Assembly: GCA_016209275.1 (NCBI GenBank)
Contig: JACQWM010000061.1
Span: forward strand, 1 to 40,394
Direction: 5' to 3'
Length of the DNA: 40,394 nucleotides
From: Candidatus Omnitrophota bacterium
GTDB taxonomy: Bacteria; Omnitrophota; Gorgyraeia; Aquiviventales; Aquiviventaceae
Position numbers and translations under genes: made by a program. This document shows, in pieces, positions 1 through 32,030 of the stretch. Position 1 is the stretch's first letter, and every line of letters starts with the position of its first letter. The notes below the pieces were generated by a model. The model made no database searches and was not told where the DNA came from. It was given only the letters and a program-made list of their open reading frames with translations.

Positions 1-3000
1 GGCGGCACCTGGACCACCTTGGGGGCCGGGGCGGATCTGGTGACGCTGACCAGCGGCTCCGGCACCTACACCTGGAACAACATCCCGGATGCGATCCACG
101 AGAACATCCTGCTGCGGGTGACCGATAACGGCAATGGGAATGTCACCGCCCAATCGGCCCAGTTCCACATCGCGGGCAAGGTGGAGGTGGCGAACATGCC
201 GGCGACTGTTCCGGTGACGCCGAAGACGCAAGCGATCACCTACACGACCACCGGCACGGTGACGTCCATCAAGCTCTACTACTCCTCGGACAACGGCTCC
301 AACTACAGCTTGCTCACGACGCAAGCCCAGACCGCGCCCGGGACCTACAACTGGACGTGGGCCACTATGCCGGATAACGTCACCAACACCGGCAAGATCA
401 AGTCGACCGACGGCAACAGCGAGGCGAACCCGTACGTTGTGCAGACCGTGTCCAACACGTTCGCAATCGTCGGGATCTTCGACCTGACCGCGCCGGAAAG
501 CGGGGCGGTGGTGACGGCTGAAACGCCGTTCCTGGTGCAGTGGGATAAGGGCACGGCTCTGGGGATCGGCAACGCCAAGATCGAATACTCGGTCAACGGC
601 GGCAGCGACTGGGCCGTGATCCAGGAGAGCGAAGGCACGGCCAATGACGGCATCGTGCCCAACTCCGGCAGCTATTCATGGAGCGTGACGCAAACACTCA
701 CGGCGGCGTTGAAGCTGCGGGTGTCAGATCCGAATAACGCGACGACGGTGAATGTGGGCGCTGGCAACAGCGAAGTGCGCGGGTCGCTGACCGTCACCTC
801 CCCGAATCTCGGCACCGAGTCGTGGGACGCCGGCTCGACCTACAGCGTGACGTGGACCAAGAAGGGCGACTGGGCCACCGCCGGCTACACGGTCCAAGTC
901 CTGTACTCCTCAAACGGCGGCTCGACCTACACCGCGATCACCGGGGCCACCGGCATCGCCGCAGCCGCCGGCAGCTACGCGTGGTTCATCAGCGACTCCA
1001 CGGTGACTAGCACCCAAGCGCGCATCCGGCTGCAGGGCGATACGCCCTACACCGTGGTCTTGGATGATTCAAACAACAACTTCACTGTGAAGGGGCAGGT
1101 CGTGCTGACCCAGCCTGACGCGGCCGGCATCACGCTCTTTGTGAACGACGGCTACGAGATCAAGTGGACCAAGTTCGGCAGCGTCGCTACGGTCGATCTG
1201 TACTACTCGATCGATAACGGCTCCACGTATCCGAACCTGATCACCACCGCCGGACCGGTGAGTGCCGCGGCCGGCACCTTCAGCTGGACCGTTCCAGACC
1301 AGATCATGACCAGCCTGCGGGTGAAAGTCGTCGACACCGGCAACTCGTCGGTGTTCGACACCTCGGCTAATGCGTTTACCATCAAGGGGAAGGTGAACCT
1401 GACGTATCCAGACGGCTTCGAGGTCTTCACGGTCAATGACACCGTCGGCATTCTCTGGTCGAAGACCGGCAGCATCGGCAACTTGAAGATCGAGTACAGC
1501 CCGGATGCCGGCACGACCTGGAGCAGCATCACCGCCTCAACTCCCTCGAACTCCGGGGCCTACACCTGGACCATCCCGCCGACGATCACGACCAGCACGA
1601 CGGCGAAGGTTCGGTTGACAACGCTCTTCTCCGACGGGGCGCTGAACATCACCGATCAGTCCGTGAACAACTTCAAGGTGAAGGGCCAGGTCACGGTGAC
1701 GTATCCCAACGCCGGATCCGAAGTCTGGATCGCGCAAGATGTGCCGACCATCCAGTGGCAGACGGTTGGGGCCATTCAGAATGTGGCGATCGACTATTCG
1801 ATCAACAATGGCTCGACGTGGACCACCGCGGTCGGCTCGACCCCGGCGGCCGCCGGCTCCTACAACCTGTGGACCGTGCCGAATAACGCCATCACGAACC
1901 AAGCCAGGATCCGTGTCACCGACACCACCGATCCTGAGGTGACCGATGTGTCGAATAATCCGCACACGATCCGCACGGCCCTCGCACTGACCGATCCCAG
2001 CACCTCCGGCCAAACCGTCGTGGTGGATTCGGTCTTCAACATCAAGTGGACGAAGAAAGGGGACATGGCGACCGTCAAGATCGAGTACTCCACCGACGGC
2101 GGATCGACGTGGAGCGTGTGCCAAGACAGCGTGGGCACCCAGGCCAACGCCTTCGACGCCAGCCAAGGGGCGACGGGCTTTCCCTGGAAAGTGCCTGATG
2201 TGCTCGGCTCGAACACGAAGATCAAGATCACCAACAACGCCGATGCGACCAATGTCTACGCGATCTCTCCAGCCTTTAAGATCATCGGGTCGGTGGCGGT
2301 GACCGCGCCGGTCTCGAGCGACAATTGGAGGGTGTGCAGCACCTACAACATCAAGTTGACCAAGACTGGCTCCTTCGCGCAGGTTCGGATCGACTACACG
2401 ACCGACAATGGCACAACCTACAACTCCATCACGGCCGGCACACCCTCTGGCGGCGGCAACCCTGGCTATCCGTGGAACGTGCCGAATGTGGCCGGTATCG
2501 TCTCCCCGAACGTGAAGATCCGGATCCAGGATGTGGATGAGCCGCTGGCCTTCAGCGTCTCGAACGCCTTCAGCGTCGTGCCGTCATTCACCGTGACCGC
2601 GCCAGCGCTCAATGAGCGGGTGACGGCGAAGCGGCCGTACAGCATCACGTGGAACACCGTCGGCCAGAACGCGACCGTGAATCTCTACTACTCCAAAGAC
2701 GCGTTTGCGAGCGCTGGCATCTCGATTGCCGCCGGCGTGTCGAACACCGGCTCCTACTCGTGGAATACGCCGGATCTGACCGAGCTCTCCACCGGCCCGG
2801 TGACGATCAATGTTCGCGTCGCGTATCCGCTCGATGAGGCCGGCGCCTACGATGATTCAGACGCCTTCAAGATGGTGGCGGGTTTTGCGGTGGTCTCGCC
2901 CAACGGAGCCGCGGATAAATGGGATGTGGGGACGACCCAGCTGATCCGTTGGACCAGCACGACCGCCAATGTCGCCACGGCGACCATTCTCTACTCGACG

Positions 3001-6000
3001 GATCAGGGCTCGACCTTCCCGTACCAGCTGACGACGACCGCGGACAATACCGGCGCGGTTGATGCGGAGCGGACATGGCTGTGGCCATCGGTCGCGGATA
3101 CGATCACCTCGCAGTTCCGCGTCAAGGTCCATGCGACCAACGATCCGCTGGCCTTTGACACATCTGACTTCAACGGCAAGATCAAGGCGTACTTCAAGGT
3201 CTTGACGCCGGATGCCTCAGGCATCGTGCTGAACGCCAACCAGGCCTACAATGTGACCTGGACGTGGAACGGCTCCGTCGCCAATGTGTTCCTCGACTAC
3301 ACGAAGGACAACGGCAGCACGTACGTTCCCATGAACGGTGGTGTGGCTACCGTCAATGACGGACTCTTCGAATGGACCGTGCCGGATGATATTACCACGA
3401 CCCCAACGGTGAAGATCCGCGTCAAAAGCAGTTTGGACCTGGATGCGTATGACTTTTCTGATAACGCGTTTAAGATCCGCGCGGTCTTCTTAGTGACGCG
3501 GCCGAACGGCGGCGAGGGGTATCGGATCGGCCTGAGCGACACGATCCAGTGGACGACGACCGGCAACATCACCTCGGTGAAGCTCATCGCATACTCCACA
3601 CTGGGTTTGAGCGACCCAGGCTTCCCCTACAGCCTGGCCTCGCCGTACACGATTGCTGATCCGCTGTCCAACACCGCCAACGGCAGCACGACGTACACGT
3701 GGAATCCGGTTCCTAACCTGCCGTCGCCCAACGTCATCGTGCGGGTGGTGGACGTGAATGACGCGGCGGTGTACGACGAATCCAACGCGGTCTTCCGCAT
3801 CCAAGGGCAGTTTACGCTTTCCTCTCCAGTCGGGAGCGAAACCTGGGGCGTGGGCAGCACCCAGAACATCACGTGGACCTGGGGCGGGAACATCCCCAAT
3901 GCCAAGATTGAATACTCGACGGACGGGGGCACCACCTACGCTGCGATTCAGGAGAGCGAAGGCACGGCCAATGACGGGATTGTCGCGAACGACGGCTCAT
4001 TCACCTGGACCGTGCCCAACGCGATTTCTGACACGGTGAAAATCCGCATCAGCGATTCGCTGGATAGCACGGTGTTCAACGTGTCGCCAGCGAACTTCAA
4101 GATTCATGGCACCTTCACCGTGGTGGCGCCCAATGGGGCGGAACGGTTGATCACCAATGACCAGCAGTCCATCACCTGGACATCGACCGGCACCATGGCG
4201 AACGCCAAGATCGAATACTCGGTTGATGGCGGGACCACATACGCGGCCATTCAGGAGAGCGAAGGCACGGCCAATGACGGCATCGTCGCCAATGACGGGT
4301 CGTTCATATGGACGATTCCCAACACCCAATCGACGACGGTCATCGTGAAGATTTCGAATCCGCTCGACCTGACCAATGGATTCGATGTCTCGAACGCGAC
4401 CTTGACCATCGATTTGTGGCAGATCACGTTCCATGTCCGCGACTTGCTCAGCAATGCGTACATCACGACCTTGACCGCAACGAGCACAGCCTCTCCGGTA
4501 GGGTACACGTGGTCGCAGCCCGGGTTAGGCAACGGTTCAGCTCCGATTATCAAAGGTTTACAGAACGGCACGTGGACGATCGTGTGGTCTCACAACGCTT
4601 ATGGGGATCAGTCGGTCAACGTCTCAGCCGTTGATCCAGACGGCGCAGGGCCGCTCACCGGCGATCAGTCGATCACGGTCTTCATGGAGACCAAGATCGT
4701 GCACATCTATGAGGCGGTCACGGAGCACTCGTACAACGCGGTGAACAACACGCTGACCCTCGGTGTTTCGCTGCGGCGCGACGGCATTCTCTTAAACGGC
4801 GCCGACTTCTGCGAGGTGAAGATCTTCGACCCGGCCAGCCCTGCCTCGCCGATTGCCGGCGGCACCTTCACCACCAATGGGGCGCCGGATGTCAACGGCT
4901 TCTACAACTACACGTGGAGCGGGACGACCTTAGACCAGGATAAGGTCTACAGCGTGGTGACCAAAGTCCGGCTCGCGTCCACTGGGGCGATCTTCACGAC
5001 GCCGCGAACGCTCAGCATCGCCGTCGAGAAGAAGATTGATACCCCCTTGTCACAGGTCAGAGGGGATGTGGTGGCTGCGGTCAACACCCAGCTGACGACT
5101 CAAACCAACAGCATCAACACCAAGCTGGATACCCAGACGACGAACCTCAACACCAAGCTGGACACGCAGACCGTCCTGATTCAGACGACGCTGAACAACT
5201 TCACCAACGCGGTGTCCAGCTCGATCATCAGCCTGGAGGACGCGGCGGTCCGAAGCCAGGTGGCCACCGAGAATCTCGAGGAAGCCGCCGAAAAGAGCTT
5301 GGCCGCGGCTGATTCACTCGATAAGACCGGCAAAAAGTACGCCGGACGCCTGCTGCTGCCGCCCACCGCGGTGATCGGCGAGCGGCTGATGCTCCGCTAC
5401 CGCGCCGGCGAGAAGCTCTCGCCGAAGATCGACATCTTCCTCGTCGACACCGAGGGCAAGACGGTGAACATCGCCAAGGAAGCCGCGATGACGGAGTCGA
5501 CCAGCAATGCGGGATTGTACGAATATGCCATCGACATCAAGAAAGACAACGGCTTCACCCCGGGCAAGCCGTTCAATGTCTTCGTGCGAGAGCTGACCAC
5601 CGGTAACCTGGAAGCCGGGTCGGTGTTCGTGGAATCAACGACGCTGAGCGCCCTGGAGGGGTTGATCGCGGCGGGCGGCGGGGTCAAGAACATCGCGCAG
5701 GAGACCTTGGACGCGGTGAAGGCGGTTCGAGGCACCTTGGCCACCGGTGGTGATTTCAACAACGCCTTGGAGCTGCTGAAGGTCAAGGTGGATCGCATCC
5801 CGCGGCTCGTGGCTGAGGAAAGCGGCACCGGCAAGATCAAGCGAACGGTCGATGAGGTGGCCGAGACGATCAAGAGCCTGGCCGGCGATCAGGGCTATGA
5901 CTTCAGCCAGCTCGTGAAGAAGGGCATTGAAGAAGCGCCCAGCCTGAAGGATGTCCGCAAGAAAGCGGATGAGATCCAGGGCGCCACCGAAGTGATGCAG

Positions 6001-6063
6001 ATTCTGATGGAGCACAAGCTCGGCGGCATCGATGATCCAGTGGTGCATGTGACGTATCAGTAA
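1..6063 (+). CDS. Giant modular Ig-like repeat surface protein (5' partial)
   Basis: The reading frame is open at the window edge and gives at least 2020 residues, so the true start and any signal peptide lie upstream. About 14 full modules and one partial one, each roughly 90-100 residues, repeat a pattern: a strand such as VTVTYPN, then a W[TK]T.G segment, then IEYS.DGG.TW, then a YTWTVP strand and a final F.I.G strand. This resembles Ser/Thr-rich Kre9/KNH-like or Ig-like beta-sandwich repeats of bacterial surface proteins. From about residue 1465 the repeats give way to two other beta-rich domains. Near residue 1680 there is a helical stretch with 11-residue repeats (NTKLDTQT twice), then another beta domain and a helical C-terminus without an anchor or sorting motif. 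The next gene starts 66 bp downstream on the same strand. Inference: an exported, cell-surface or periplasm-spanning structural or adhesive protein, possibly held by the TM proteins that follow. The modular nature is clear; the function is not. Confidence 0.8.
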   Translation, partial: GGTWTTLGAGADLVTLTSGSGTYTWNNIPDAIHENILLRVTDNGNGNVTAQSAQFHIAGKVEVANMPATVPVTPKTQAITYTTTGTVTSIKLYYSSDNGSNYSLLTTQAQTAPGTYNWTWATMPDNVTNTGKIKSTDGNSEANPYVVQTVSNTFAIVGIFDLTAPESGAVVTAETPFLVQWDKGTALGIGNAKIEYSVNGGSDWAVIQESEGTANDGIVPNSGSYSWSVTQTLTAALKLRVSDPNNATTVNVGAGNSEVRGSLTVTSPNLGTESWDAGSTYSVTWTKKGDWATAGYTVQVLYSSNGGSTYTAITGATGIAAAAGSYAWFISDSTVTSTQARIRLQGDTPYTVVLDDSNNNFTVKGQVVLTQPDAAGITLFVNDGYEIKWTKFGSVATVDLYYSIDNGSTYPNLITTAGPVSAAAGTFSWTVPDQIMTSLRVKVVDTGNSSVFDTSANAFTIKGKVNLTYPDGFEVFTVNDTVGILWSKTGSIGNLKIEYSPDAGTTWSSITASTPSNSGAYTWTIPPTITTSTTAKVRLTTLFSDGALNITDQSVNNFKVKGQVTVTYPNAGSEVWIAQDVPTIQWQTVGAIQNVAIDYSINNGSTWTTAVGSTPAAAGSYNLWTVPNNAITNQARIRVTDTTDPEVTDVSNNPHTIRTALALTDPSTSGQTVVVDSVFNIKWTKKGDMATVKIEYSTDGGSTWSVCQDSVGTQANAFDASQGATGFPWKVPDVLGSNTKIKITNNADATNVYAISPAFKIIGSVAVTAPVSSDNWRVCSTYNIKLTKTGSFAQVRIDYTTDNGTTYNSITAGTPSGGGNPGYPWNVPNVAGIVSPNVKIRIQDVDEPLAFSVSNAFSVVPSFTVTAPALNERVTAKRPYSITWNTVGQNATVNLYYSKDAFASAGISIAAGVSNTGSYSWNTPDLTELSTGPVTINVRVAYPLDEAGAYDDSDAFKMVAGFAVVSPNGAADKWDVGTTQLIRWTSTTANVATATILYSTDQGSTFPYQLTTTADNTGAVDAERTWLWPSVADTITSQFRVKVHATNDPLAFDTSDFNGKIKAYFKVLTPDASGIVLNANQAYNVTWTWNGSVANVFLDYTKDNGSTYVPMNGGVATVNDGLFEWTVPDDITTTPTVKIRVKSSLDLDAYDFSDNAFKIRAVFLVTRPNGGEGYRIGLSDTIQWTTTGNITSVKLIAYSTLGLSDPGFPYSLASPYTIADPLSNTANGSTTYTWNPVPNLPSPNVIVRVVDVNDAAVYDESNAVFRIQGQFTLSSPVGSETWGVGSTQNITWTWGGNIPNAKIEYSTDGGTTYAAIQESEGTANDGIVANDGSFTWTVPNAISDTVKIRISDSLDSTVFNVSPANFKIHGTFTVVAPNGAERLITNDQQSITWTSTGTMANAKIEYSVDGGTTYAAIQESEGTANDGIVANDGSFIWTIPNTQSTTVIVKISNPLDLTNGFDVSNATLTIDLWQITFHVRDLLSNAYITTLTATSTASPVGYTWSQPGLGNGSAPIIKGLQNGTWTIVWSHNAYGDQSVNVSAVDPDGAGPLTGDQSITVFMETKIVHIYEAVTEHSYNAVNNTLTLGVSLRRDGILLNGADFCEVKIFDPASPASPIAGGTFTTNGAPDVNGFYNYTWSGTTLDQDKVYSVVTKVRLASTGAIFTTPRTLSIAVEKKIDTPLSQVRGDVVAAVNTQLTTQTNSINTKLDTQTTNLNTKLDTQTVLIQTTLNNFTNAVSSSIISLEDAAVRSQVATENLEEAAEKSLAAADSLDKTGKKYAGRLLLPPTAVIGERLMLRYRAGEKLSPKIDIFLVDTEGKTVNIAKEAAMTESTSNAGLYEYAIDIKKDNGFTPGKPFNVFVRELTTGNLEAGSVFVESTTLSALEGLIAAGGGVKNIAQETLDAVKAVRGTLATGGDFNNALELLKVKVDRIPRLVAEESGTGKIKRTVDEVAETIKSLAGDQGYDFSQLVKKGIEEAPSLKDVRKKADEIQGATEVMQILMEHKLGGIDDPVVHVTYQ

Positions 6064-6129: not shown

Positions 6130-6948
6130 ATGAGGCGGCAGGGAGTTGCGATGATGGTGGCGGCGGCGCTGGTTGGCGGTATGACGGTTCCGGTATGCGC
6201 GGCGGAGCGCGAGCCGATGACAATGCGCGTGGTGGCCGTCAACCCATCGGCGGAAAAAGCCAAAACGGTTCCGGTGCGCATCGATTTGCCGCAGGAGATC
6301 AAGCCGGGCGACATCATCGACCACGGGGATCTGGAAGTGGAATTTGATACGGAGCGCTCCCTCTACTTCGTCCACAAGGAGGACGTGACCCTCTCGCCGA
6401 AGCAGACCCGCATCTTTGAGGTGGTCGTCAAAGATGTGTGGTTCATTCCGGACACGGACCTGGCCGGCTTGAGAAACCATGCGCAGATTCTCATGAAGCG
6501 GCTGGAGAAAAGCGAGTACCGCGACGCGGCGCTGCAGCTCGGCGGCACCATCGTCTCGCGGCTGGATGACATCCAGAAGATGCAGGATGATGAGTCGGTC
6601 GCCAGGAAGCAGCGGATCGGCGCGTACCGGCGCAACCTGCTGGCCCTCCAGACGATCAAAGAGGACTTGGCCCGGCTCGAGAAGCTGCTGTCCTTTGCAG
6701 GCGGCCCGCCGGTGCCCCAGATGCTCGAGGAATCGCCGTTGAAATCGGACGCGCCGTCCACCACGACGACGTGGCTGGTGATCTTTTTGATCGTGATCTT
6801 CATGGGGCTGCTGGCCGGGCAGTTCTTCTTCACCTGGCAACGGCGGCTCAAGACGGTCTCGGGGTTTTCCAACGAGCCTGAGGCGTTTCCCAACGAGGGG
6901 CCTCCTGAGGATGGGGGAGCCGCTCCGCGGGGAGGACCTGAGCGATAA
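6130..6948 (+). CDS. Exported single-TM protein with periplasmic domain and coiled coil
   Basis: This 272-residue protein belongs to no family I recognise. It has a signal peptide (residues 1 to about 24, ending VCAA), a beta-rich region (about 27-95), and a charged helical region likely to be coiled coil (about 100-195). A Thr-rich linker leads to one strong TM helix (about 214-236), followed by RR residues and a Pro/Gly/Glu-rich tail of about 36 residues. Signal peptide plus stop-transfer predicts a periplasmic body and a cytoplasmic tail. An aggaag-type ribosome-binding site lies about 8 bases before the ATG. It sits between the giant surface protein and the F1-like ATPase genes and overlaps the next small gene. 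Inference: a linker between surface protein and cytoplasmic motor, or a partner of the giant protein. Topology is well supported; the role is a guess. Confidence 0.75.
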   Translation: MRRQGVAMMVAAALVGGMTVPVCAAEREPMTMRVVAVNPSAEKAKTVPVRIDLPQEIKPGDIIDHGDLEVEFDTERSLYFVHKEDVTLSPKQTRIFEVVVKDVWFIPDTDLAGLRNHAQILMKRLEKSEYRDAALQLGGTIVSRLDDIQKMQDDESVARKQRIGAYRRNLLALQTIKEDLARLEKLLSFAGGPPVPQMLEESPLKSDAPSTTTTWLVIFLIVIFMGLLAGQFFFTWQRRLKTVSGFSNEPEAFPNEGPPEDGGAAPRGGPER

Positions 6949-7071: not shown

Positions 7072-7323
7072 ATGGCGACGAGAGCGATACCGAAAGTGGA
7101 AGTGCTGGTGACGAGTCCGGCGAAGGTGCTGTATCGCGGCACGGCGCAGAGCGTCGTGTTCCCAGGCGAGCAGGGGACCTTTGAGGTGCTGCCGCTGCAT
7201 CGGCCGCTCGTGAGCCGCCTGATCTCCGGCGCGCTCACCATCGATGGACGCGAGCTGGCGATTCGACGAGGGATTGTCCGTGTGGCGGATGATGTCGTCA
7301 CCGCAGTGGTAGAACTACCATGA
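7072..7323 (+). CDS. atpC: F1-type ATPase epsilon subunit, N-terminal domain only
   Basis: The 83-residue product matches the beta-sandwich domain of the epsilon subunit: V.VTSPAKVLYRG, VVFPGEQGTFEVLPLHRPLV, a G-LTI strand and a final IRRGIVRVADDVV. It ends there and lacks the C-terminal helical hairpin present in usual epsilon subunits of about 130-140 residues. That hairpin inhibits ATP hydrolysis in many bacteria, so its absence fits an enzyme that is free to hydrolyse ATP (inference). The start at 7072 is preferred over 7018 because aaaggaaag lies upstream of it, the domain begins there, and the region before it encodes the small TM protein in another frame. Epsilon normally comes last, after beta; here it is first. 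Confidence 0.85.
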   Translation: MATRAIPKVEVLVTSPAKVLYRGTAQSVVFPGEQGTFEVLPLHRPLVSRLISGALTIDGRELAIRRGIVRVADDVVTAVVELP

Positions 7324-7324
7324 A

Positions 7325-7355
7325 AGCTATCAGCTATCAGCTATCAGCTATCAGC
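7325..7355. repeat. 7-bp tandem micro-repeat (agctatc x4.4)
   Basis: Four perfect copies of agctatc plus a partial one fill the junction between the epsilon and c-like genes. The array ends directly before the ggagaaag ribosome-binding site of the c-like gene. Confidence 0.95.
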
Positions 7356-7363
7356 GGAGAAAG

Positions 7364-7681
7364 ATGATGAAGGATCAGTGGGCGGTGCCGGTGGCGATTG
7401 GGACGACCATGGCGATCGTCGGGATCATGGTCATCATCGCCGCGGCCTGGAAGCTGTCGGTCAGCCGCAACGTGGCCCTGACGGTGATCTTCATGATGTC
7501 CATTGTCGGGCCGTCGCTGGTGTTCGCGGCCAACGCGTTCTCGAGCATTGAAGCGCTGGGGCGCAATCCCTCAGCGGCTCCGAAGATCATGACGGCGATG
7601 GTGATCAATTTGTTTTTTTCGGCCGGTGTGACCATTGTGGCGTTTCTGGTGGTCTGGCAGCTCTACGCGGCGCGAGGATGA
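7364..7681 (+). CDS. F0 c-subunit-like membrane protein lacking the ion-binding carboxylate
   Basis: The 105-residue product has three predicted TM helices (about 9-29, 38-59, 75-101), against two helices and 70-90 residues in usual c subunits. The c-subunit signature is the polar loop ALGRNPSAAPKI between helices 2 and 3, followed by a TAM-I segment as in genuine c subunits. Counting without gaps from Arg67 of that loop, the site of the essential Asp/Glu is Ala87; a one-residue shift gives Ser86. No Asp or Glu occurs in any TM helix; the only acidic residues are Asp4 and Glu63, outside the membrane. The Gly-rich GxGxG packing motif of the first c helix is also missing. It probably forms or replaces the membrane ring for the gamma stalk but cannot carry ions in the known way. 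ATG 7364 is used; 7367 is an alternative with better spacing from the ribosome-binding site. Confidence 0.75.
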   Translation: MMKDQWAVPVAIGTTMAIVGIMVIIAAAWKLSVSRNVALTVIFMMSIVGPSLVFAANAFSSIEALGRNPSAAPKIMTAMVINLFFSAGVTIVAFLVVWQLYAARG

Positions 7682-7689: not shown

Positions 7690-8418
7690 ATGTCGTTTCT
7701 TCCGATGGTGGTCATTGTCCTGGTGTGTTTTATCGGCGGGGTCATCGTCCTGCAGATGCTCTTTGGCCGCCAGGTCACCCACGCCACCGCCCAGCTGCAA
7801 GCTCTCAACGCCGAATACACGCGGCGCCAGGAGGAGCTGAAAGAGCGGGTCAAGGAAGCCGAGCGGCAATACGACGAGCTCATGGCGAAGGCGCGGACCG
7901 AAGCCGAGCAGATGGTGCTGCACGCCAAGCAAGAAGCCGAATCCACGAAAGCGCGGACGGTCGAAGAGGCGCGCGCGGAGAGTGACCGGATCATCCACAT
8001 GGCGATGACCAGCCGCGACGCCATTCGCAAAGAAATCGAGCAAGACATGGAGCGCCGCACCATCGACCGCGCCTGCGAGATGATCCGAGCCGCACTCCCG
8101 GCGGTGTTCCGACGGCAGATTCAATCTCACTGGCTTGAGGAACTGCTCGCCGACGGGCGAGGCACGCTCGATGGATTGAAAACGGACGAAGCGGTGCAGG
8201 AAGCCCGGATCGCCTCAGCGTTTCCCCTGTCGGCGGAGCAGCGACGGTTGATTCAGGACCACCTGAAGAAGCTCTTCGGGCGGGACGTGACACTCACCGA
8301 AGTCGTGGATGAGACGCTGGTGGCGGGGTTGACGCTGACGGTGGGTAGCCGGGTGCTTGATGGCACGCTGGCGTCAAAGATCCAACACGAGGCTCGTCGA
8401 GCCCAGCAGGCGATCTGA
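7690..8418 (+). CDS. F-type ATPase b-delta fusion (peripheral stalk)
   Basis: This 242-residue protein begins with one TM helix (about 4-24), followed by a long charged coiled coil (about 28-130) typical of the b subunit. A second part (about 150-240) ends VAGLTLTVGSRVLDGTLASK, matching the C-terminal signature of the delta subunit (GGL-I-IGD-VIDGS--GKL). Fused b-delta proteins are known in some bacteria, notably actinobacteria. The product would be the stator linking the membrane to the top of the alpha3-beta3 ring. Its stop codon overlaps the alpha start (TGATG), implying coupled translation. A peripheral stalk without any visible a subunit to bind is odd. Confidence 0.85.
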   Translation: MSFLPMVVIVLVCFIGGVIVLQMLFGRQVTHATAQLQALNAEYTRRQEELKERVKEAERQYDELMAKARTEAEQMVLHAKQEAESTKARTVEEARAESDRIIHMAMTSRDAIRKEIEQDMERRTIDRACEMIRAALPAVFRRQIQSHWLEELLADGRGTLDGLKTDEAVQEARIASAFPLSAEQRRLIQDHLKKLFGRDVTLTEVVDETLVAGLTLTVGSRVLDGTLASKIQHEARRAQQAI

Positions 8419-9919
8419 TGGCAGGCAGCACACAGCACACAGCAGACAGCACACAGGGACATCCCGAGACCTCAGCGTATGAAATTCGAGAGATCGGGAC
8501 GGTGAAGTCGGTGCGGGAGCTGATCGTCCGGGTCGTAGGATTGCCCTCCTGCATGAACGGGCAGATGGTGGAGTTTGCGAATGGCGCGATCGGCATGGTG
8601 ATGGGGTTCACCGAGCACGATGTCCAGGTGCTCGTCTTCGGCGGCAAGGGGCGGATTCGCGCCGGCGATGAGGTGTACAACCGCGGCCAAGAATTCCGGC
8701 TGCCCGTCGGAGACCCGTTCATCGGGCGCATCGTCAACGCGCTGTGCGAGCCGGTCGACGGCTTAGGGCCAATTGCCGCGACCGAGCACCAGCCGGTGTT
8801 CGCCGAAGCCGCGGGGATCTTGGAGCGCCGCGGCGTGGAAGACACGCTGGAAACCGGCACGAGGATTCTCGACGCCGTGATTCCCATCGCGAAAGGGCAG
8901 CGCCAACTGCTGATCGGCGACCGCATGACGGGAAAAACCACCTTGACCATCGACGCGATCCTCAATCAAAAAGGGAAAAACGTCGTCTGCATTTATTGCT
9001 CCACCGGCAAAGCCTATTCCAATCTTCTGCGGATGGTGCGGCTGCTGCAGCACCAAGGGGCGATGGAGTACACCGTGGTGGTCAGCGGTCCGGCCTCCTC
9101 CTCGCCGGGCGAGCAATATTTGTCGCCCTACACCGCCGCGACGCTTGGCGAGCACTTCATGCGGCGCGGCCGCGACGTCCTGGTGGTCTTTGACGATCTG
9201 ACGAAGCACGCCTGGGTGTACCGGCAGCTCAGCTTGCTGATGGAGCGCGCCCCGGGCCGCGAAGCGTATCCCGGCGACATCTTCTATATCCATTCGCAGC
9301 TCATGGAGCGGGCGGCCGCCATGACGCCTGAGCTTGGCAACGGCTCCATGACGTTTCTGCCCATTTGCGACATCCTGCAGGGGGACCTGACCGGGTACAT
9401 TCCGAGCAACTTGGTGTCCATGACCGACGGGCAGATTTATTTCAACACGACGCTGTTCAACAAGGGGATCAAGCCGGCCATCGATTTCGGGTTGTCGGTG
9501 TCCCGCATCGGCAGCAAGGCGCAATGGCCGGGGATGAAGGAGCTCAGCGGGAAACTGCGCCTGGAATATGTCCAGTATCAGGAGCTGCTGCAGATGACGC
9601 AATTGCGCACGAATCTCTCCTCGGATGCGGAGGCGAAACTCAAGCGCGGCGAGGCGATCACGAACCTGCTCGTTCAAGACAAAAACCGCCCCGCGGCGAT
9701 GGAGGACCAGATCATGCAGCTCTACGCGCTGCGGAAAGGCGTCTTGGATGAGCTCTCGGCCAGCCATATCAAGCAATTCAAGCGGGAGTTCGGAGCCGCC
9801 GTGCGCCAATGGGTTCCGCAGTTCGCGCCGGAGCTTCGAACGCGCAAGACCCTGACCGCCGAGATGAAACCGCAGCTTGACGAGATGCTGCGCCGCTACC
9901 TTCAACAATTGGCCCCCTG

Positions 9920-9920
<1 letters not shown>
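8418..9920 (+). CDS. atpA: F1-type ATPase alpha subunit
   Basis: The 500-residue product is a clear alpha subunit. It has a beta-barrel N-domain (about 22-95), the P-loop GDRMTGKT at 167-174, the segment VVFDDLTKHAWVYRQ, the near-universal PGREAYPGDIFYIHS, and the arginine finger in SVSRIGS at Arg363. Length and layout are usual. The odd part is the extreme N-terminus: residues 4-13 are translated from a 7-bp tandem repeat, in the place where the delta-binding N-terminal helix normally sits. The alpha subunit holds non-catalytic nucleotide sites and supplies the arginine finger to beta. Starts and stops overlap on both sides (TGATG). Confidence 0.97.
8427..8456. repeat. 7-bp tandem micro-repeat (agcacac x4) inside atpA start
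   Basis: Four units agcacac, agcacac, agcagac, agcacac, plus ag, begin 9 bp after the atpA start codon. They are read in frame as the low-complexity peptide STQHTADSTQ. The unit length (7) is not a multiple of 3, so the codons drift through all three phases of the unit. Confidence 0.9.
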
Positions 9921-12194
<2,274 letters not shown>

Positions 12195-12201: not shown

Positions 12202-12690
12202 ATGGAGACGTCGAGATCGAACAAGCGGATCGGAGAAATCCTGATGGAGCGCGGGTTGGTGACGCGCCGGCAGCTGGAGCTCGCCCTTGAGCATCAGCGC
12301 ATCACCGGCCAATTCCTGGGGGCTACGCTCATCGATCTTGGGTTCATCAATTCGAAGATTCTGCTGGAAACGCTCTCGGAGCAGTTTCGTATTCCCCATG
12401 AGCCGCTCAGCGAAGGGCGCGTCGACTGGGAGGCGGTGAAAAAGTTTCCGGCATCTTTGCTGGCCTCAGGGAAATGCTTTCCCGTCCGCGCGGATGCCGC
12501 GACGGTCACGATCGCCTTGGCGAATCCGCTCGATGTGGAAGCGGTGAGCCAGGCCGAAAAGTTCGCGGGCTTGCGGCAGGTGAAACTGGTGCTGGTCTTG
12601 GAGCGCGAATTGCGAGAGGTGGTGCGAGCGTATCAGCAGCGCATCCTGCGATCGCTCTCCTCGCAACTGAAAAGCCATGGCAGCCTCTAA
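12202..12690 (+). CDS. Free-standing MshEN/GspE N-terminal domain protein (putative c-di-GMP sensor)
   Basis: This 162-residue protein consists only of a type II secretion E-protein N-terminal domain, with no ATPase domain. Two tandem motifs fit the MshEN cyclic-di-GMP-binding pattern: RIGEILMERGLV followed by LALEHQ (about residues 10-33), then LGATLIDLGFI followed by LETLSEQ (about 39-62). A small alpha/beta domain with IALANPLDVEAV and a C-terminal helix follow. MshEN domains bind c-di-GMP in MshE and some PilB/GspE ATPases. As a separate protein it could signal to the adjacent GspE or to the ATPase upstream. It overlaps gspE by 14 bp. The domain call is good; ligand binding is inferred from the motif. 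Confidence 0.82.
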   Translation: METSRSNKRIGEILMERGLVTRRQLELALEHQRITGQFLGATLIDLGFINSKILLETLSEQFRIPHEPLSEGRVDWEAVKKFPASLLASGKCFPVRADAATVTIALANPLDVEAVSQAEKFAGLRQVKLVLVLERELREVVRAYQQRILRSLSSQLKSHGSL

Positions 12691-14386
12691 ACCGACGAAA
12701 TTTGGGCAGGGCCTCGTGACGAGCGGGGTGTTGACCGCCGAGCAGCTCGAGCAAGCCATGCAGGAGCAGGCGTCGAGCCGGCGGTTCCTGGGGACGATTC
12801 TGCTGGAGCGCCGATGGCTCAGCCCGGAGCAGCTGCTGCGCGCGCTCTCCGAGCAGTACGGGATGCCGTGGACGCGCTTCGCCGATGGGAGCGTGGAGCG
12901 GCAGGCGATCGACGCCATGCCGGTGAAGGTCGCCACGCACTATAAGGTCATGCCGGTTCGGGCCGGCAACGGCAGCCTCACCGTCGCCATTGCGAATCCC
13001 CAAGACGTGCGCCTGGCCGACGAATTGCAGACGGCGCTGCAGGATCGCTTTCGCATCGAGACGGTGCTGGCGACCGAGGAGGACATCGAGCGCGCCATCA
13101 AGAAGCACTACGGCATCGGCGCTGAAACCGTCAGCCAGCTCGTGAAGGATCAGCCGGCGAGTCTCCGCCTGCAAGCCGTCGGCGAGGGGGCGGTCGAGGA
13201 TATTGAGCAGCTAGCGGATGACGCCTCGGTCGTGAAGCTCGTCAACCAGCTCATGGTCGAAGCCCATCACCGCCGCGCCACGGACATCCACCTGGAGCCG
13301 TACCGCGGCAAGGTGCGCCTGCGGTATCGCATCGATGGCGTGCTGCGCAACGTGGACGTGCCACCGGCAATTCGGCAATTGTTTCCGGCCATCCTCTCGC
13401 GCGTGAAAGTGCTCTCCAACCTGAACATCATGGAGCGGCGCCTGCCTCAGGACGGGCGCGCGAGTGTTAAAGTGGGGGAGGAGAAGCTCGATCTGCGCAT
13501 TTCGGTGCTGCCCACGCCCTCCGGCGAGAGCATCGTGGTGAGAATCCTGCCCAACACCATGCTGCTGGCGTTGAAAGATCTGGGGTTTCGCGCCGAGGAT
13601 CTCGACGGGCTGCAGCGCATCATCGCCCAGCCCCACGGGCTGCTGTTCGTCACCGGCCCGACCGGCAGCGGCAAGACCACCACCCTCTACGGCATGCTCA
13701 ATACGATCAATACCGAGCGGCGGAAGATCATCACCATCGAGGATCCGGTGGAATACGAAATGGACGGCGTGACGCAGGTGCAGATTCATCCATCGATCGG
13801 GTTGACCTTTGCGACCGGGCTGCGCAGCATGCTGCGCCACGACCCGGATGTGATGATGGTTGGGGAAGTGCGCGATTATGAGACGGCCGAGCTGGCGATT
13901 CGGATCGCGCTAACCGGCCACCTGGTCTTTTCGACGCTGCATACGAATGATTCCGCCAGCAGCGTGACCCGCTTGCTGGATATGGGGGTGGATCCGTATC
14001 TCATCGTCTCCTCGGTGTCCTGCTTCATGGCGCAGCGCCTGGTGCGGCTGCTCTGTCCCGACTGCAAGGTCGAGATCGCGCCGGAGCGCAAGGATTTCAA
14101 GCGCCGGTTTCAAGCCAAAGGCTGCGAGGCGTGCGGGCATGCCGGCTACTTCGGCCGAACGGCGATCTATGAGCTGCTGGTCATGGCCGAGCCCATCAAG
14201 CAGCTCGTGCTGCAGCGCGCCTCCTCCGATGCGATTTGGCGCAAGGCGATTGAATGCGGGATGCGCACCATGCAGCAAGACGGCTGGGAGAAAGTGTCCC
14301 AGGGCTTGACGACGCCGGAGGAAGTGACGCGTGTGACCCAAGAGCAAGAAGATGAGTTCCTCCGCGTGACCAAAGAGGAAACCTGA
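12677..14386 (+). CDS. gspE: Type II secretion/type IV pilus assembly ATPase GspE (PilB-like)
   Basis: A 569-residue GspE/PilB-family hexameric ATPase. Its N-terminal domain (about 8-160) repeats the MshEN layout of the preceding protein but with a weaker motif (KFGQGLVTSGVLT). The N2 domain (about 180-300) carries the usual RATDIHLEPY. The Walker A is GPTGSGKT (327-334), the Asp/Walker B box is DPDVMMVGEVRD, and the His box is STLHTND. The tetracysteine zinc motif is complete (CPDC about 458, CEAC about 481). It powers pseudopilus assembly by driving GspF. Length and motifs are normal, so it should be active. A second, shorter paralogue lies at 28475. Confidence 0.95.
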   Translation: MAASKPTKFGQGLVTSGVLTAEQLEQAMQEQASSRRFLGTILLERRWLSPEQLLRALSEQYGMPWTRFADGSVERQAIDAMPVKVATHYKVMPVRAGNGSLTVAIANPQDVRLADELQTALQDRFRIETVLATEEDIERAIKKHYGIGAETVSQLVKDQPASLRLQAVGEGAVEDIEQLADDASVVKLVNQLMVEAHHRRATDIHLEPYRGKVRLRYRIDGVLRNVDVPPAIRQLFPAILSRVKVLSNLNIMERRLPQDGRASVKVGEEKLDLRISVLPTPSGESIVVRILPNTMLLALKDLGFRAEDLDGLQRIIAQPHGLLFVTGPTGSGKTTTLYGMLNTINTERRKIITIEDPVEYEMDGVTQVQIHPSIGLTFATGLRSMLRHDPDVMMVGEVRDYETAELAIRIALTGHLVFSTLHTNDSASSVTRLLDMGVDPYLIVSSVSCFMAQRLVRLLCPDCKVEIAPERKDFKRRFQAKGCEACGHAGYFGRTAIYELLVMAEPIKQLVLQRASSDAIWRKAIECGMRTMQQDGWEKVSQGLTTPEEVTRVTQEQEDEFLRVTKEET

Positions 14387-14416: not shown

Positions 14417-14425
14417 ATGTTGAAA

Positions 14426-15649
14426 ATGCCAAAATTCCACTACACAGCGAAACGCGGACCGCAGGATGTCATTGAAGGCATCCTGGAGGCGGAGAACCGC
14501 AGCGGAGTCCTCGCCTACCTGACGCATGCCGGGTATGTGCCGGTGCGCATTCGCGAGCACGCCGATGGGCAGACGGTTTCGGTGAAGCGACCGGCGACCC
14601 CCCTCCGCCCGCGGCGAGTGCCCTCGTCCGCCTTGGCGATGATGACGCGGCAATTCGCCAGCTTGACGCGCTCCGCCGTGCCGCTGCTGCGGGCGTTGAG
14701 CATCCTTGAAGATCAGGCCAGAGTCCCGTACCTGAAACACGTCTTGCGCGCGCTGAGCGAAGAGGTGCGCCAGGGCCAAACGCTCTCCTCGGCGATGGCA
14801 AAGTTCCCCACGGTCTTCTCCCCGCTGTACGCGAACCTGGTCCGCTCCGGAGAGATCAGCGGGGCGCTGGACGCCGTGCTCGAGCGGCTGGCGGAGCAAG
14901 CCGAGCAGGAGGAAGCGATTCGGATGAAACTCCGCATGGCGTTCACCTATCCCGCGTTCGTCGGGGCGGTGGGCTGCGGCACCGTGATCTTTCTGATGAC
15001 GTTCGTCATGCCTCGGCTCTCGCGCCTGCTCATCGGCTTAGGCTCGCGGCTGCCGGCGGCGACGCGCGGGCTGCTGGCGATTTCCGAGGTGATGTCGACC
15101 TGGTGGTGTTGGGCCTCGGTGGCCGCCGCGGTGATGCTCGGCATTGTGCTCTGGCGGAACCTCGGGGAGCGCAGCCGGCTGGCGATCGATGGGCTCCTGC
15201 TGAAGGTTCCGCTCCTGGGCCCGCTGATCCAGCAAATCGACGTCGCTCGCTTCGCCCGCTCCTTTGGATTGCAGCTTGGCCATGGCATTTCGATTCTTCA
15301 GGCGATGGACGTGGCCCTCTGGGTGGTGGGCAATCGGATGATCCGCAAGGAGTTCCAGCGGCTGCCCGAAGCGCTGCGGCAGGGCACGCCGCTTTCGAGC
15401 GCCTTGAAAGAGCTGTCGGTCGGCACGGCCTTCCTTGTCAACACGGTGGCGGTCGGCGAAGAGGTCGGCAACGTGGGAGAATCGCTGACGGAAATCGCCC
15501 GCTATTACGAGCAAGACAGCGAGCGGCTGCTGCAGATGATGGCCGCGCTGGTGGAGCCGATCCTGATCGTCGGCGTGGGGCTGATCGTCGGCTTCATCGT
15601 CATGGCCGTGCTGCTGCCCATCTTTGAGATGAGCACAATTAATCCGTAA
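14426..15649 (+). CDS. gspF: Type II secretion/type IV pilus inner-membrane platform protein GspF (PilC-like)
   Basis: About 407 residues. Start 14426 gives MPKFHYTAKRG, the normal beginning of GspF/PilC; an in-frame ATG at 14417 would add three residues. Two T2SSF domains are visible, with ALAMMTRQFASLTRSAVPLL and a conserved G-I-ALD--LERLA in the first half and a matching RFARSFGLQLGHGISILQAMD in the second. Three TM helices follow the usual pattern: after the first domain (about 168-192), around 220-240, and near the C-terminus (IVGVGLIVGFIVMAVLLPIF). It is the platform on which GspE acts to polymerise pseudopilins. Confidence 0.95.
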   Translation: MPKFHYTAKRGPQDVIEGILEAENRSGVLAYLTHAGYVPVRIREHADGQTVSVKRPATPLRPRRVPSSALAMMTRQFASLTRSAVPLLRALSILEDQARVPYLKHVLRALSEEVRQGQTLSSAMAKFPTVFSPLYANLVRSGEISGALDAVLERLAEQAEQEEAIRMKLRMAFTYPAFVGAVGCGTVIFLMTFVMPRLSRLLIGLGSRLPAATRGLLAISEVMSTWWCWASVAAAVMLGIVLWRNLGERSRLAIDGLLLKVPLLGPLIQQIDVARFARSFGLQLGHGISILQAMDVALWVVGNRMIRKEFQRLPEALRQGTPLSSALKELSVGTAFLVNTVAVGEEVGNVGESLTEIARYYEQDSERLLQMMAALVEPILIVGVGLIVGFIVMAVLLPIFEMSTINP

Positions 15650-15662: not shown

Positions 15663-16100
15663 ATGGAAAAGATTAGACAAGGGTTTACGCTGATTGAGTT
15701 GATGCTCGTGGTGGTGATTATTGGAGCGTTGGCGGCGATGGTGGTGCCACGCTTAGCGGGCCGGTCCGAAGAGGCGCGCATCGGCATTGCGAAGACCGAT
15801 ATCAAGGCGAACATCGCGACCGCCCTGAAGCTGTATGAGCTCGACAACGGCCGATTCCCGACGACGGAGCAGGGTTTGCAGGCGCTGATCGCCAAGCCGA
15901 CCAGCCCGCCGGTGGCGGATAACTGGAAAGGCCCGTACATTGAGCAGGAGCCGCTGGACCCGTGGAGACGGCCGTACGTGTATCGGTATCCGGGGACGCA
16001 TCCGCCCAGGGATTATGATTTGTTTTCCGTGGGGGCCGACGGGGTCGAGGGCAAAGACGATGTCACGAATTGGGCCGTGCAGGCGGCGAGCCAAGACTAA
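15663..16100 (+). CDS. gspG: Major pseudopilin GspG
   Basis: A 145-residue pseudopilin with a short leader MEKIRQG, cleaved before FTLIELMLVVVIIGALAAMV, with the +5 glutamate present. The C-terminal half has the GspG layout, including RFPTTEQGLQALI, a DPW..PY.Y segment and D-FS-GADG, the calcium-binding loop of major pseudopilins. A ggagg ribosome-binding site lies 7 bases before the ATG. It forms the body of the periplasmic pseudopilus. It needs a prepilin peptidase, which is not encoded in this window. Confidence 0.96.
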   Translation: MEKIRQGFTLIELMLVVVIIGALAAMVVPRLAGRSEEARIGIAKTDIKANIATALKLYELDNGRFPTTEQGLQALIAKPTSPPVADNWKGPYIEQEPLDPWRRPYVYRYPGTHPPRDYDLFSVGADGVEGKDDVTNWAVQAASQD

Positions 16101-16464
16101 GGGCGTCAGCCTGATTGAAGTCCTCATCAGCGTCGCCATCCTCGCCGCCGGGATGGCGGTGATTCTGCAAGGGCTCGTCCGCAGCGCCTACACCCTCAGC
16201 GTGGCCCGCAATCGCCTGCGCGCGTACAGTTTCGCCTCGGCGAAACTCACCGAAGTGGAATTAGGCATTCACCAGCGTGCGGAGCTGCGGCCGGAGGGGA
16301 GTTTCCGAATCGGCCGCGAGACGTTCCGCTGGCAGTTGACGGTAGCCCCCGCGACTCCCACCACTCAAGAGGCCGCGCTGGCCGTGGAATGGCAGCAGGC
16401 CGGCCATCCCTACCGCATTCACACCGCGTCGATGATGCCGATCCCCGCGACCCCTGAGCCATGA
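16060..16464 (+). CDS. gspI: Minor pseudopilin, GspI-like
   Basis: The 134-residue form begins at an ATG inside the end of gspG (41-bp overlap). It gives the leader MSRIGPCRRRAKTKG, followed by VSLIEVLISVAILAAGMAV, the type IV pilin N-terminus with glutamate at +5. The first Phe is replaced by Val, as in many minor pseudopilins. The remainder, with the A-N-LRAYSFASAKL-E-E segment, resembles GspI. A longer reading from 15940 is rejected because it only adds the shadow of gspG. GspI works with GspJ and GspK as the pseudopilus tip. The stop overlaps the gspJ start (ATGA). Confidence 0.85.
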   Translation: MSRIGPCRRRAKTKGVSLIEVLISVAILAAGMAVILQGLVRSAYTLSVARNRLRAYSFASAKLTEVELGIHQRAELRPEGSFRIGRETFRWQLTVAPATPTTQEAALAVEWQQAGHPYRIHTASMMPIPATPEP

Positions 16465-17078
16465 CACCGCCACGCGCTGGCCGCGGATTTACGGTTGTGG
16501 AAATGCTCGTGGTCGTCTCGCTGATGGCCTTGGCCGGCGGGGCCATGGTCTCGGCGTTTGCCGGCGGGCTTCGGGTCTGGCAGCGGGCGAATGAATTGAG
16601 CGCAGCAGGGCAATCCGGGTTGATCGCCTTCGAGTTCATCCGGCGGGATCTGCGCAGCCTCCGCACCTTTTCGCCGGTGCCCTTCGACGGCGCCTATGAT
16701 CGGTTTTCCGCCGCGACCGTCGAGGCCGAGCGCCCATCGGCCTGGCCCTCAGGGACGCTGGGCCGCATCGGCTATTTTCTTCGCGAGCGGGATCACGTGC
16801 TCTGCCGCTCGTTTGTTCCCTATGCGCAGACGCGGACCGTCTCGCTGCGCGATCGCTGCGAGCCGGTGCTGGATCGCGTGACGCGCCTGCGCCTTCGGTA
16901 TTTCGGCAAGCACCCCGACAGCGGAGTCGAAGCGTGGAGCAGCCACTGGAGCGGGCCGTCGCCGCCGCTGGCGGTCACGGTTGAGGTGACCACGCAGGAG
17001 GGCCGGCGGCCGCCTGTCACCCAGACGCATACGGTGTTTCTTGCCCAAGGACACATCGATGAACCGACAACAGAGTGA
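16461..17078 (+). CDS. gspJ: Minor pseudopilin, GspJ-like
   Basis: A 205-residue protein with leader MTPPRAGRG followed by FTVVEMLVVVSLMALAGGA and glutamate at +5. The segment after the helix (FEFIRRDLRSLR) matches the conserved region of GspJ/PilW pseudopilins. The C-terminal domain is beta-rich and has two Cys (CRS, DRCEP) that could form a disulfide. By its place between gspI and gspK it is the J component of the tip complex. It overlaps gspK by 20 bp. Confidence 0.88.
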   Translation: MTPPRAGRGFTVVEMLVVVSLMALAGGAMVSAFAGGLRVWQRANELSAAGQSGLIAFEFIRRDLRSLRTFSPVPFDGAYDRFSAATVEAERPSAWPSGTLGRIGYFLRERDHVLCRSFVPYAQTRTVSLRDRCEPVLDRVTRLRLRYFGKHPDSGVEAWSSHWSGPSPPLAVTVEVTTQEGRRPPVTQTHTVFLAQGHIDEPTTE

Positions 17079-18120
17079 TATCGCGGATCGTGGATCGTGG
17101 ATCGTGGATCGTGGACCCCTTCACGTCCACCATCCACCATCCACCATCCACCATCCTCATGGTGGAAGCATCCTCATCTACGTGCTGTGGGTGACGTTCT
17201 TGCTGAGCCTCTTCGCCGTCAGCGTGGCGTCCCAAGCCTCCGCCGGGCTGCGGTTTTCTGACCGCATGCTCGGCCAGTTGCGCATGCGCGGGATCGCCCA
17301 GGCCGGTTTGCTGAAGGCCATCGAAGCGCTCGCCCTTGACGCATCGATGGTCGATACGCTCAGCGATCCCTGGGCGGATTCGTTTCATGATCGCACGCAG
17401 TGGGACGGGATCTTTTCGTTGATGTCATCTCCGAAGCCCGATCCGGAGCGCCGCTATGGCCTGGCCGATGAAGAGCGCCGGCTGAATCTGAACACCGCGC
17501 CGAAGGATGCGCTCGACCGGTTGATCCGCTCGGTGACGCCGCTGGCACCCGATGACGCGGACGCCCTCGCCGATGCGATCAGTGATTGGCGCGATGAGGA
17601 TGATGATGCCGAGCCGCATGGCGCGGAGCATTTTTACTATCGGGGGCTGGCCAACGCCTACGATTGCAAAAACGGGCCGTTCGAGCAGCTCGAGGAGCTT
17701 CGGCTGGTCAAGGGGGTGTCTCCGGCGATCTATCGCTGGCTTGAGCCGCATGTGACGGTCTATGGCTCGGGGGCGGTCAACGTGAATACCACCTCGCCGG
17801 TGATCTTCGCAGCGCTCGGTCTGAGCCCTCAGGGGGTGGCGGGCCTTCGAGCCTTTCGGTCGGGGGAGGATGGCCTTGAAGGCACGGGCGATGACCAAGC
17901 GTTCTCATCCGTCGATGGCATGGAAGCAGACCTCCGGGCGTATCTTCCCCAAGCGGACCTCGGCAGGCTCGCGCAGCTCATGCAAAAAAAACTCCTCACG
18001 GTCTCCTCGCGCGCGTTCCGGTTCCACCTGGAAGCTAGTGATGGCACGCCGGCCCACGCGGTGCATGCGATGGGCATCATCGATCGGGAAGGGCACGTCA
18101 AGTTGTGGACAGAACGGTAA
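17059..18120 (+). CDS. gspK: Minor pseudopilin, GspK-like
   Basis: About 353 residues from ATG 17059. After an unusually long N-terminus of about 34 residues comes GGSILIYVLWVTFLLSLFAV, the GspK-type helix without the +5 glutamate. The rest matches GspK: the DEERRLNLNTA segment, two helix-hairpin-helix-like SAM regions (ISDWRDEDDD and GVSPAIYRWL) and VNVNTTSP. The long leader is mostly translated from two 7-bp repeat arrays that together can form an imperfect hairpin, so it looks like an in-frame repeat insertion before the TM helix. GspK caps the pseudopilus. A TTG six codons upstream is possible but less likely. Confidence 0.9.
   Translation: MNRQQSDIADRGSWIVDRGPLHVHHPPSTIHHPHGGSILIYVLWVTFLLSLFAVSVASQASAGLRFSDRMLGQLRMRGIAQAGLLKAIEALALDASMVDTLSDPWADSFHDRTQWDGIFSLMSSPKPDPERRYGLADEERRLNLNTAPKDALDRLIRSVTPLAPDDADALADAISDWRDEDDDAEPHGAEHFYYRGLANAYDCKNGPFEQLEELRLVKGVSPAIYRWLEPHVTVYGSGAVNVNTTSPVIFAALGLSPQGVAGLRAFRSGEDGLEGTGDDQAFSSVDGMEADLRAYLPQADLGRLAQLMQKKLLTVSSRAFRFHLEASDGTPAHAVHAMGIIDREGHVKLWTER
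17085..17154. repeat. Paired 7-bp arrays forming an imperfect hairpin inside gspK
   Basis: Four copies of ggatcgt (17085-17112) are followed by four copies of ccaccat (17127-17154). The second array is complementary to the first at 6 of 7 positions per unit. The inner junction is a perfect gtggac/gtccac pair with an 8-base loop. The whole lies in frame in the gspK leader region. Confidence 0.9.
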
Positions 18121-18136: not shown

Positions 18137-18281
18137 CACCAATAATGACCAATCACCAAGCTCCAATAATCAAACAAGCACCAATGACCGAATGACCAAT
18201 GACCAAACCAATATTGCGGTTTGGATATTCGGTCATTGATTCATTGGTCATTGTTTGGTTATTGGGATTTGGTCATTGGTA
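18137..18281. repeat. Large imperfect inverted repeat built from aatgacc-type words
   Basis: This AT-richer stretch fills the 173-bp gap between gspK and the gspL-like gene. Many copies of aatgacc/accaatg lie to the left and ggtcatt/cattggt to the right, giving complementary arms of about 60 bp around aatattgcggtt. It is unlike the surrounding coding sequence in composition. It has no U-tract, but could act as a transcript-stabilising hairpin or attenuator. Confidence 0.8.
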
Positions 18282-18293
18282 ATTTTCCTGACC

Positions 18294-22978: not shown

Positions 22979-23061
22979 GACGCCAAAAGTATACCACATC
23001 AGTGGCGAGCGTTGGCGAATGGCGATCAACGAAAGGCCATGGGGAAAATCTTTTGCCAAGC

Positions 23062-23091
23062 TTGACGAAGGATGACCATGGCAGGCATACT
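23062..23091 (+). promoter_or_regulatory. Candidate sigma-70-type promoter for the HTH/kinase operon
   Basis: TTGACG at 23062-23067 and CATACT at 23086-23091 are 18 bp apart, in the divergent region upstream of the HTH gene (start 23114). The -35 element is good, the -10 only fair (4 of 6). Confidence 0.4.
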
Positions 23092-23113
23092 CTACCTATA
23101 TAGAGGAAGGCGC

Positions 23114-23293
23114 ATGGAGAAACCGTACTTGAACGTTGAAGATGTGGCCAAGCGCTTTGGCGTGAATACCACGACGATTTACCGCTTGGTCAAGCGCGGC
23201 AAGCTGCCGGGCTTCAAGGTCGGCAGCCAGTGGCGGTTCAGCGAGCTGCGCCTGAAGGAATGGGTCGAAAACCACGAGTGGCTCGGCTCATGA
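23114..23293 (+). CDS. Excisionase-type (MerR-like) HTH DNA-binding protein
   Basis: 59 residues from ATG 23114, with agaggaagg ideally placed 4-10 bases upstream. Residues 5-55 fit the helix-turn-helix of the excisionase family (LNVEDVAKRFGVNTTTIYRL, then VKRGKLPGFKVGSQWRF and ELRLKEWVE). Such small proteins bind DNA and often regulate neighbouring genes rather than excise elements. No integrase or att site is visible. It is the first gene of the kinase operon and overlaps the next gene by 4 bp (ATGA), so autoregulation of this operon is plausible. Confidence 0.9.
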   Translation: MEKPYLNVEDVAKRFGVNTTTIYRLVKRGKLPGFKVGSQWRFSELRLKEWVENHEWLGS

Positions 23294-28025: not shown

Positions 28026-28058
28026 CACGAACACCGACACAGAGGAGGGCGCGCCGCC

Positions 28059-28460: not shown

Positions 28461-28474
28461 GGGAAGAGAGCGCC

Positions 28475-32029: not shown

Positions 32030-32030
32030 C

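Follow-up and report, generated by a model that had tools for sequence, protein, structure and literature searches.

A c-subunit homologue without the ion-binding carboxylate, probably a rotor-ring subunit of a second, a-less F1-type ATPase in Omnitrophota

What might a c-subunit homologue do in an F1-type ATPase operon once it has lost the carboxylate that binds the transported ion? The question is raised by a gene at positions 7364–7681 (forward strand) of a stretch of 40,394 nucleotides from a Candidatus Omnitrophota bacterium, which we refer to as the window. The reading frame is intact, begins with ATG behind a good ribosome-binding site, GGAGAAAG, and encodes a protein of 105 amino acids that we characterized by NCBIfam, alignment, AlphaFold2 and Foldseek. 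Four tandem copies of AGCTATC lie directly 5' of the ribosome-binding site (7324–7356), between the epsilon-like and c-like genes. The preliminary description of this DNA had assigned the protein three transmembrane helices without any acidic residue inside them, and both statements hold: AlphaFold2 predicts helices at residues 3–31, 35–67 and 69–102 (mean pLDDT 83, with lower confidence, 66–75, in the extra N-terminal helix), Kyte-Doolittle hydropathy averages 1.8–2.3 over these segments, and none of the three contains Asp or Glu, E63 being located at the cytoplasmic end of helix 2.

Taken by itself, the window protein has no match in Pfam, and the NCBIfam c-subunit model NF005608 matches its residues 37–99 with E = 6e-4. 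The family as a whole speaks more clearly. PF00137 is matched by 51 of the 53 family members, and a profile of the family reaches solved c subunits in the PDB across both helices with a best E-value of 2.4e-9. Among the 50 matches listed by Foldseek for the AlphaFold2 model, all are c subunits or rotor rings; taken one by one these matches are weak (E ≥0.07), as is to be expected of so short a hairpin fold. The polar R-N/Q-P loop of F-type c subunits is present as R67 N68 P69 (7562–7570, forward strand), the predicted rotor docking loop, which is invariant among 53 aligned homologues and present in 56 more. Judged by these profile matches, the c-subunit ancestry proposed earlier is firm, well beyond what chance would give. 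The other mark of an F-type c subunit, a membrane Asp or Glu, is absent: Ala87 (GCC, 7622–7624, forward strand) fell in the alignment column where relatives carry Glu, so that the ion site is indeed gone from this protein.

Two further features that had been read as signs of a changed function carry less weight. The glycine-rich packing motif is lost as described, but this says little, since a clean GxGxG run is missing from many ordinary c subunits of Omnitrophota, including this genome's own. The extra N-terminal helix is present but is not a family trait, and as such was rejected: a hydrophobic segment ahead of the S/N-R-N start of the family was seen only in the window protein and in one relative (G022), and by the alignment the helix is a local feature. 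Because G022 has the extra helix yet keeps the Glu, we consider the gain of the helix and the loss of the Glu to be unlinked. In G007, G119 and other genomes, search matches that continue upstream across an in-frame stop were set aside, since they seem to have been extended spuriously into the gene before.

The company that the gene keeps tells more about its likely role. It belongs to a second, F1-like operon, all on the forward strand, in the order epsilon N-domain, c, b/delta fusion, alpha, gamma, beta. The epsilon-like subunit (7072–7323, 83 amino acids; PF02823, E = 4.8e-13) consists of the N-terminal beta-sandwich only, as do the similarly short proteins of relatives (mostly 75–110 amino acids), and therefore the inhibitory C-terminal helices would be gone. 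The b/delta fusion (7690–8418) has one transmembrane helix, a long coiled coil and a delta C-terminal domain (PF00213 at residues 99–167, E = 3.9e-15; TIGR03321, E = 3.4e-14). It is followed by the alpha subunit (8418–9920; PF00006, PF00306 and PF02874, TIGR00962 above cut-off) with its P-loop and arginine-finger motif, the gamma subunit (9920–10768; PF00231, E = 5.8e-30) and the beta subunit (10782–12194; TIGR01039, 559 bits, above cut-off), whose catalytic motifs are intact. Several of the operon's genes overlap by a few bases in the style of translational coupling. The order epsilon-c-b/delta-alpha-gamma-beta-GspE-GspF is kept in dozens of genomes from many Omnitrophota families, and these clusters retain the P-loops, the catalytic Glu region in beta and the alpha arginine-finger motif, so that ATP hydrolysis is expected. 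Most of the related contigs, which were found via their beta subunit, bear the label Candidatus Omnitrophota; two records carry the labels of other phyla, and the kinship table places at least one of them in the window's family.

What this operon does not contain is a subunit a. None was found at the window locus, where the F1 genes are packed without space for one and no multi-transmembrane gene lies between them. PF00119 was searched for in 147 relatives and matched in 71 of them, in 69 above cut-off. Wherever a stretch was read, the strong match adjoins a canonical c, and no match fell inside any of the c-like clusters read. The window genome is of this kind, with a subunit a at C24:2195–2863 next to a canonical c at C24:1913–2092, on a contig separate from the F1-like operon. 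Of the genomes with a c-like gene, 28 show no PF00119 match anywhere, and 20 of these 28 reach 90% completeness or more; therefore the a-less state is common to Glu-bearing and Glu-less members. The earlier proposal that ion transport had been given up is thus supported, although on a different footing: the main evidence for it is the lack of subunit a in every such cluster read, Glu-bearing ones included, and the loss of the Glu looks secondary. Perhaps the complex nonetheless still pumps ions or makes ATP, borrowing the canonical a, and perhaps the ordinary c, or using an a-like partner not recognized as such. Most homologues do keep the Glu, canonical a and c are both encoded in the window genome, and the Glu-bearing members may have a membrane stator too divergent for the a-subunit model. 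Against this stand the 20 near-complete genomes that have a c-like gene and no a anywhere, the missing carboxylate of the window protein, and the lack of any multi-transmembrane gene among the F1 genes; we regard continued ion pumping as improbable.

We consider it probable, instead, that the c-like protein is a rotor-ring subunit of a second, non-respiratory, a-less F1-type ATPase of Omnitrophota, in which the ring transmits torque without ion flow. How the carboxylate site behaves across the phylum bears on this reading. Among 120 c-like sequences, made up of 64 genes including that of the window and 56 from a phylum-wide search, the site is Glu in 92 (about 77%) and another residue in 28 (Gln in 16, Ala in 5, Val and Thr in 3 each, Met in 1), and Asp was found in none of the 120. 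The closest relatives of the window (G010, G020, G007 and G022) carry Glu. A conserved Ala or Ser at this position, which the preliminary description had offered for checking by alignment of homologues, is rejected by these counts. As a control, we read 40 stretches around canonical subunit a; the ordinary c next to it carries Glu in 38 of the 38 cases where the site is readable, and the difference in Glu loss from the first 64 c-like genes gives a Fisher p of 8e-4 if kinship is ignored. On a quick alpha/beta tree of 58 clusters, made without bootstrap and with counts of Glu loss that depend on kinship, the site changes about nine times, at least seven of these on well-supported (starred) branches, and the window is nested among the Glu-bearing G010, G022, G007 and G020. 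These changes are most simply losses, since canonical c subunits and most homologues have Glu.

The preliminary description had held that Glu in close relatives would point to a local mutation or a sequencing error. Such relatives exist, and the window genome is a single metagenome-assembled genome, so let us assume that Ala87 reflects local degeneration, an assembly error or a decaying gene in one genome. Three adjacent codons at the Ala87 site, not one, differ from the relatives. Over the rest of the gene the comparison with G010 gives 45 of 63 core residues identical, mostly third-position differences, and a dN of 0.17 against a dS of 0.86 (dN/dS about 0.2), from which the gene is judged to be under purifying selection, without decay. 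The same site has, moreover, been lost independently in many other lineages. This repeated loss and the purifying selection are at odds with a local mutation or a sequencing error, an explanation that we find very hard to believe.

On the sequence data at hand, the Glu loss looks like a secondary, tolerated step in the evolution of an a-less rotor. No link was seen between the loss and the genome-wide absence of a among the Glu-less genomes compared: the window genome, G023, G067, G138 and G033 have an a elsewhere, and G119, G137, G103, G095 and G094 are without one. That about 77% of the c-like proteins retain the Glu without a cognate a is not explained by a simple lack of selection, and the residue may matter for structure or in some other way. 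We considered whether the Glu covaries with a basic position in the transmembrane helix of b and dropped the idea as unsupported; the window has Q in place of R there, and other Glu-less members keep R, K or H, as judged by eye. In one genome (G129) a different arrangement was seen: a second c-like gene (L147:7334–7576) lies in the canonical atp operon directly before subunit a, and its ion site reads Ser rather than Glu (AITSSTGIYSL); a normal c with Glu follows downstream (8415–8732), so that a mixed ring is possible there.

How might such a rotor work? We suppose that ATP hydrolysis in alpha3-beta3, whose catalytic residues are present, would turn gamma-epsilon, and that gamma-epsilon would in turn drive a putative ring of c-like subunits through the invariant RNP loop. 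The b/delta fusion would serve as the stator, presumably held by its own transmembrane helix, and the ring as a bearing in the membrane that passes on the torque. With no subunit a there would be no ion path, and with no ion path the carboxylate would be dispensable, so that it could be lost repeatedly, here to Ala87, as the RNP docking loop stays invariant. The load would most likely be the type II-secretion-like pseudopilus encoded downstream and/or the single-transmembrane periplasmic and giant surface proteins encoded upstream, to which the conserved operon points. The arrangement suggests that ATP is spent on mechanical work rather than on ion pumping. The earlier idea that anchoring of the rotor was kept is supported by these observations, and an a-less operon with intact F1 catalytic motifs strengthens the case. 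One could also imagine that the c-like protein is a static anchor or packing element, with gamma rotating in the F1 stator and the force leaving on the cytoplasmic side, as has been proposed for Mycoplasma mobile, in which case it would be of no consequence whether a c-ring turns. The known reason for a rotating ring has, after all, gone together with the Glu and a, and the F1-like motors of Mycoplasma function without a recognizable c (PMC3369863, PMC11864180). We regard this as unlikely, because the RNP docking loop is invariant and because a b/delta stator with a membrane helix is kept with the F1 genes, which fits best if the rotor lies in the membrane.

For the load of the proposed rotor, the genes on either side of the F1 genes are instructive; those described here with their matches are again all on the forward strand. 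Upstream, a reading frame at 19–6063, whose 5' end is outside the window, encodes the C-terminal part of a giant secreted or surface protein, with Ig-like repeats (weak Pfam matches) and then a coiled coil; many related loci have a match to this part upstream of their c-like gene. It is followed by a conserved membrane protein (6130–6948; AlphaFold2 pLDDT 84) with a signal peptide, a periplasmic beta domain, a helical stalk and one C-terminal transmembrane helix, which has homologues in most related loci and matches no family and no solved fold in the PDB. By eye, some of its homologues (for example that of locus L068) run into a GGDEF-like domain after the transmembrane helix. Downstream lie an MshEN-type domain protein of the c-di-GMP-binding family (12202–12690; PF05157, E = 5.5e-14; NF053729 above cut-off), a GspE/PilB ATPase with an N-terminal MshEN (12677–14386; PF00437, E = 3.7e-130), a GspF/PilC platform protein (14417–15649; TIGR02120, 338 bits), the major pseudopilin GspG (15663–16100; TIGR01710, 158 bits against a cut-off of 89), the minor pseudopilins GspI, GspJ and GspK (15940–16464, 16461–17078 and 17041–18120; profile matches), and a PilM/GspL-like protein and GspM (18255–19841 and 19848–20444; TIGR01175 and NF040576). 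The stand-alone MshEN gene precedes and overlaps that of the MshEN-bearing GspE, and one or two genes of this kind occur in some relatives. The MshEN domain on GspE, together with the GGDEF-like domain of some homologues of the upstream membrane protein, suggests control by c-di-GMP. The set expected of a type II system, GspE, GspF, GspG and pseudopilins, is thus present, with GspG above its cut-off and GspE, F, I, J, K and M clear but below equivalog cut-offs; because GspG passes, type II-secretion-like is a better label for the window than type 4a pilus. No secretin GspD was found in the window, and six secretins are encoded elsewhere in the genome. Further downstream, a second pilus- or secretion-type set occupies 28475–36304 (GspE/PilB, GspF/PilC, pilins, PilM, PilN-like); histidine kinases and several receiver domains that stand alone (21731–30320) come before it. 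At 32901–33794 a pilin-like protein carries a fused F5/8 type C (discoidin-like) domain and may be a tip adhesin.

Two relatives (G010 and G011) have a second version of the locus in two pieces: the upstream membrane protein is together with c and PilM, and a c-less cluster epsilon-b/delta-alpha-gamma-beta-GspE-GspF lies on another contig (L145, L146). Four loci (L067, L081, L097 and L098) have a Glu-less c-like gene and PilM, with the upstream membrane protein except in L067, and no F1 genes alongside. We considered free c-rings without F1 at these loci and rejected them for G010 and G011, which have split operons; the other genomes concerned (G005 and G015) are incomplete. The split loci tie c, the upstream membrane protein and PilM together, which argues for work with the secretion-like platform.

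If the reading proposed here is true, the membrane ring of this rotary ATPase would have been retained solely for mechanical output, and the complex would mark an evolutionary stage between ion-coupled F1F0 and those F1-like motors of Mycoplasma that have no F0. It would offer a natural system in which what the carboxylate of c does can be told apart from ring assembly and torque. In Omnitrophota, a little-known phylum thought to include predators and parasites of other microbes, it would connect an F1 motor with secretion or surface activity. More tentatively, we can imagine a rotary F1 motor that has no ion channel but a complete rotor (gamma, epsilon and c-ring) and a b/delta stator, and that directly drives the pseudopilus or a surface protein through the membrane: a mechanical F-type ATPase, intermediate between F1F0 and the F0-less Mycoplasma motors, in which the ion site is decaying.

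How does this arrangement compare with systems described before? With canonical c subunits (PF00137, for example that of Chloroflexus aurantiacus, PDB 9itj), the window protein shares the helical hairpin, the R-N/Q-P loop and homology over both helices; it differs by the missing carboxylate, the extra N-terminal helix, an operon without a, and the secretion genes in that operon. The N-ATPases (alternate F1F0) likewise form a second F-type operon beside a standard one, and the b/delta fusion is weakly similar to their TIGR03321, but the alt_F1F0 cut-offs are missed by far (beta 493 of 752, alpha 503 of 750 and b 53 of 225 bits). N-ATPases keep a and a carboxylate-bearing c. Closest are the non-respiratory F1 clusters of Omnitrophota reported in 2023 as ‘symbiotic’ F-type ATPase/type 4a pilus loci (Seymour et al., PMC10066038), with which the window shares the phylum, the kind of F1 cluster beside GspE/PilB-type genes, and giant reading frames in the same genomes; a non-respiratory alpha and beta beside pilus or secretion genes is just what the window locus has. 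The main text of that paper covers alpha and beta only, and the c-subunit terms looked for there do not occur (PMC10066038). Among the genomes with such a locus is that of Velamenicoccus archaeovorus (PMC10066038). The c-like rotor, the missing a and the recurrent Glu loss are added to these loci here, and the neighbours score as type II pseudopilins rather than plain type 4a pili. The 2023 tree, as presented there, grouped the Omnitrophota alpha with Mycoplasma types (PMC10066038). By NCBIfam scores the window's alpha and beta are closer to canonical F-type than to Mycoplasma or N-ATPase models, the Mycoplasma models scoring below their cut-offs as well as below the canonical ones. With the Mycoplasma F1-like X0 complexes (Types 2 and 3; MIB-MIP, gliding motors) the Omnitrophota systems share an a-less F1 core and, if our reading is right, non-energetic surface functions (PMC3369863, PMC12994834, PMC11864180). 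The Mycoplasma complexes are without recognizable a, b and c (PMC3369863, PMC12994834) and have X0 membrane proteins of their own with 3 and 12 transmembrane helices, whereas Omnitrophota keep c and the b/delta stalk. With c and b/delta kept, a gone and the ion site eroding, the Omnitrophota arrangement is therefore distinct from the F1-like X0 complexes of Mycoplasma.
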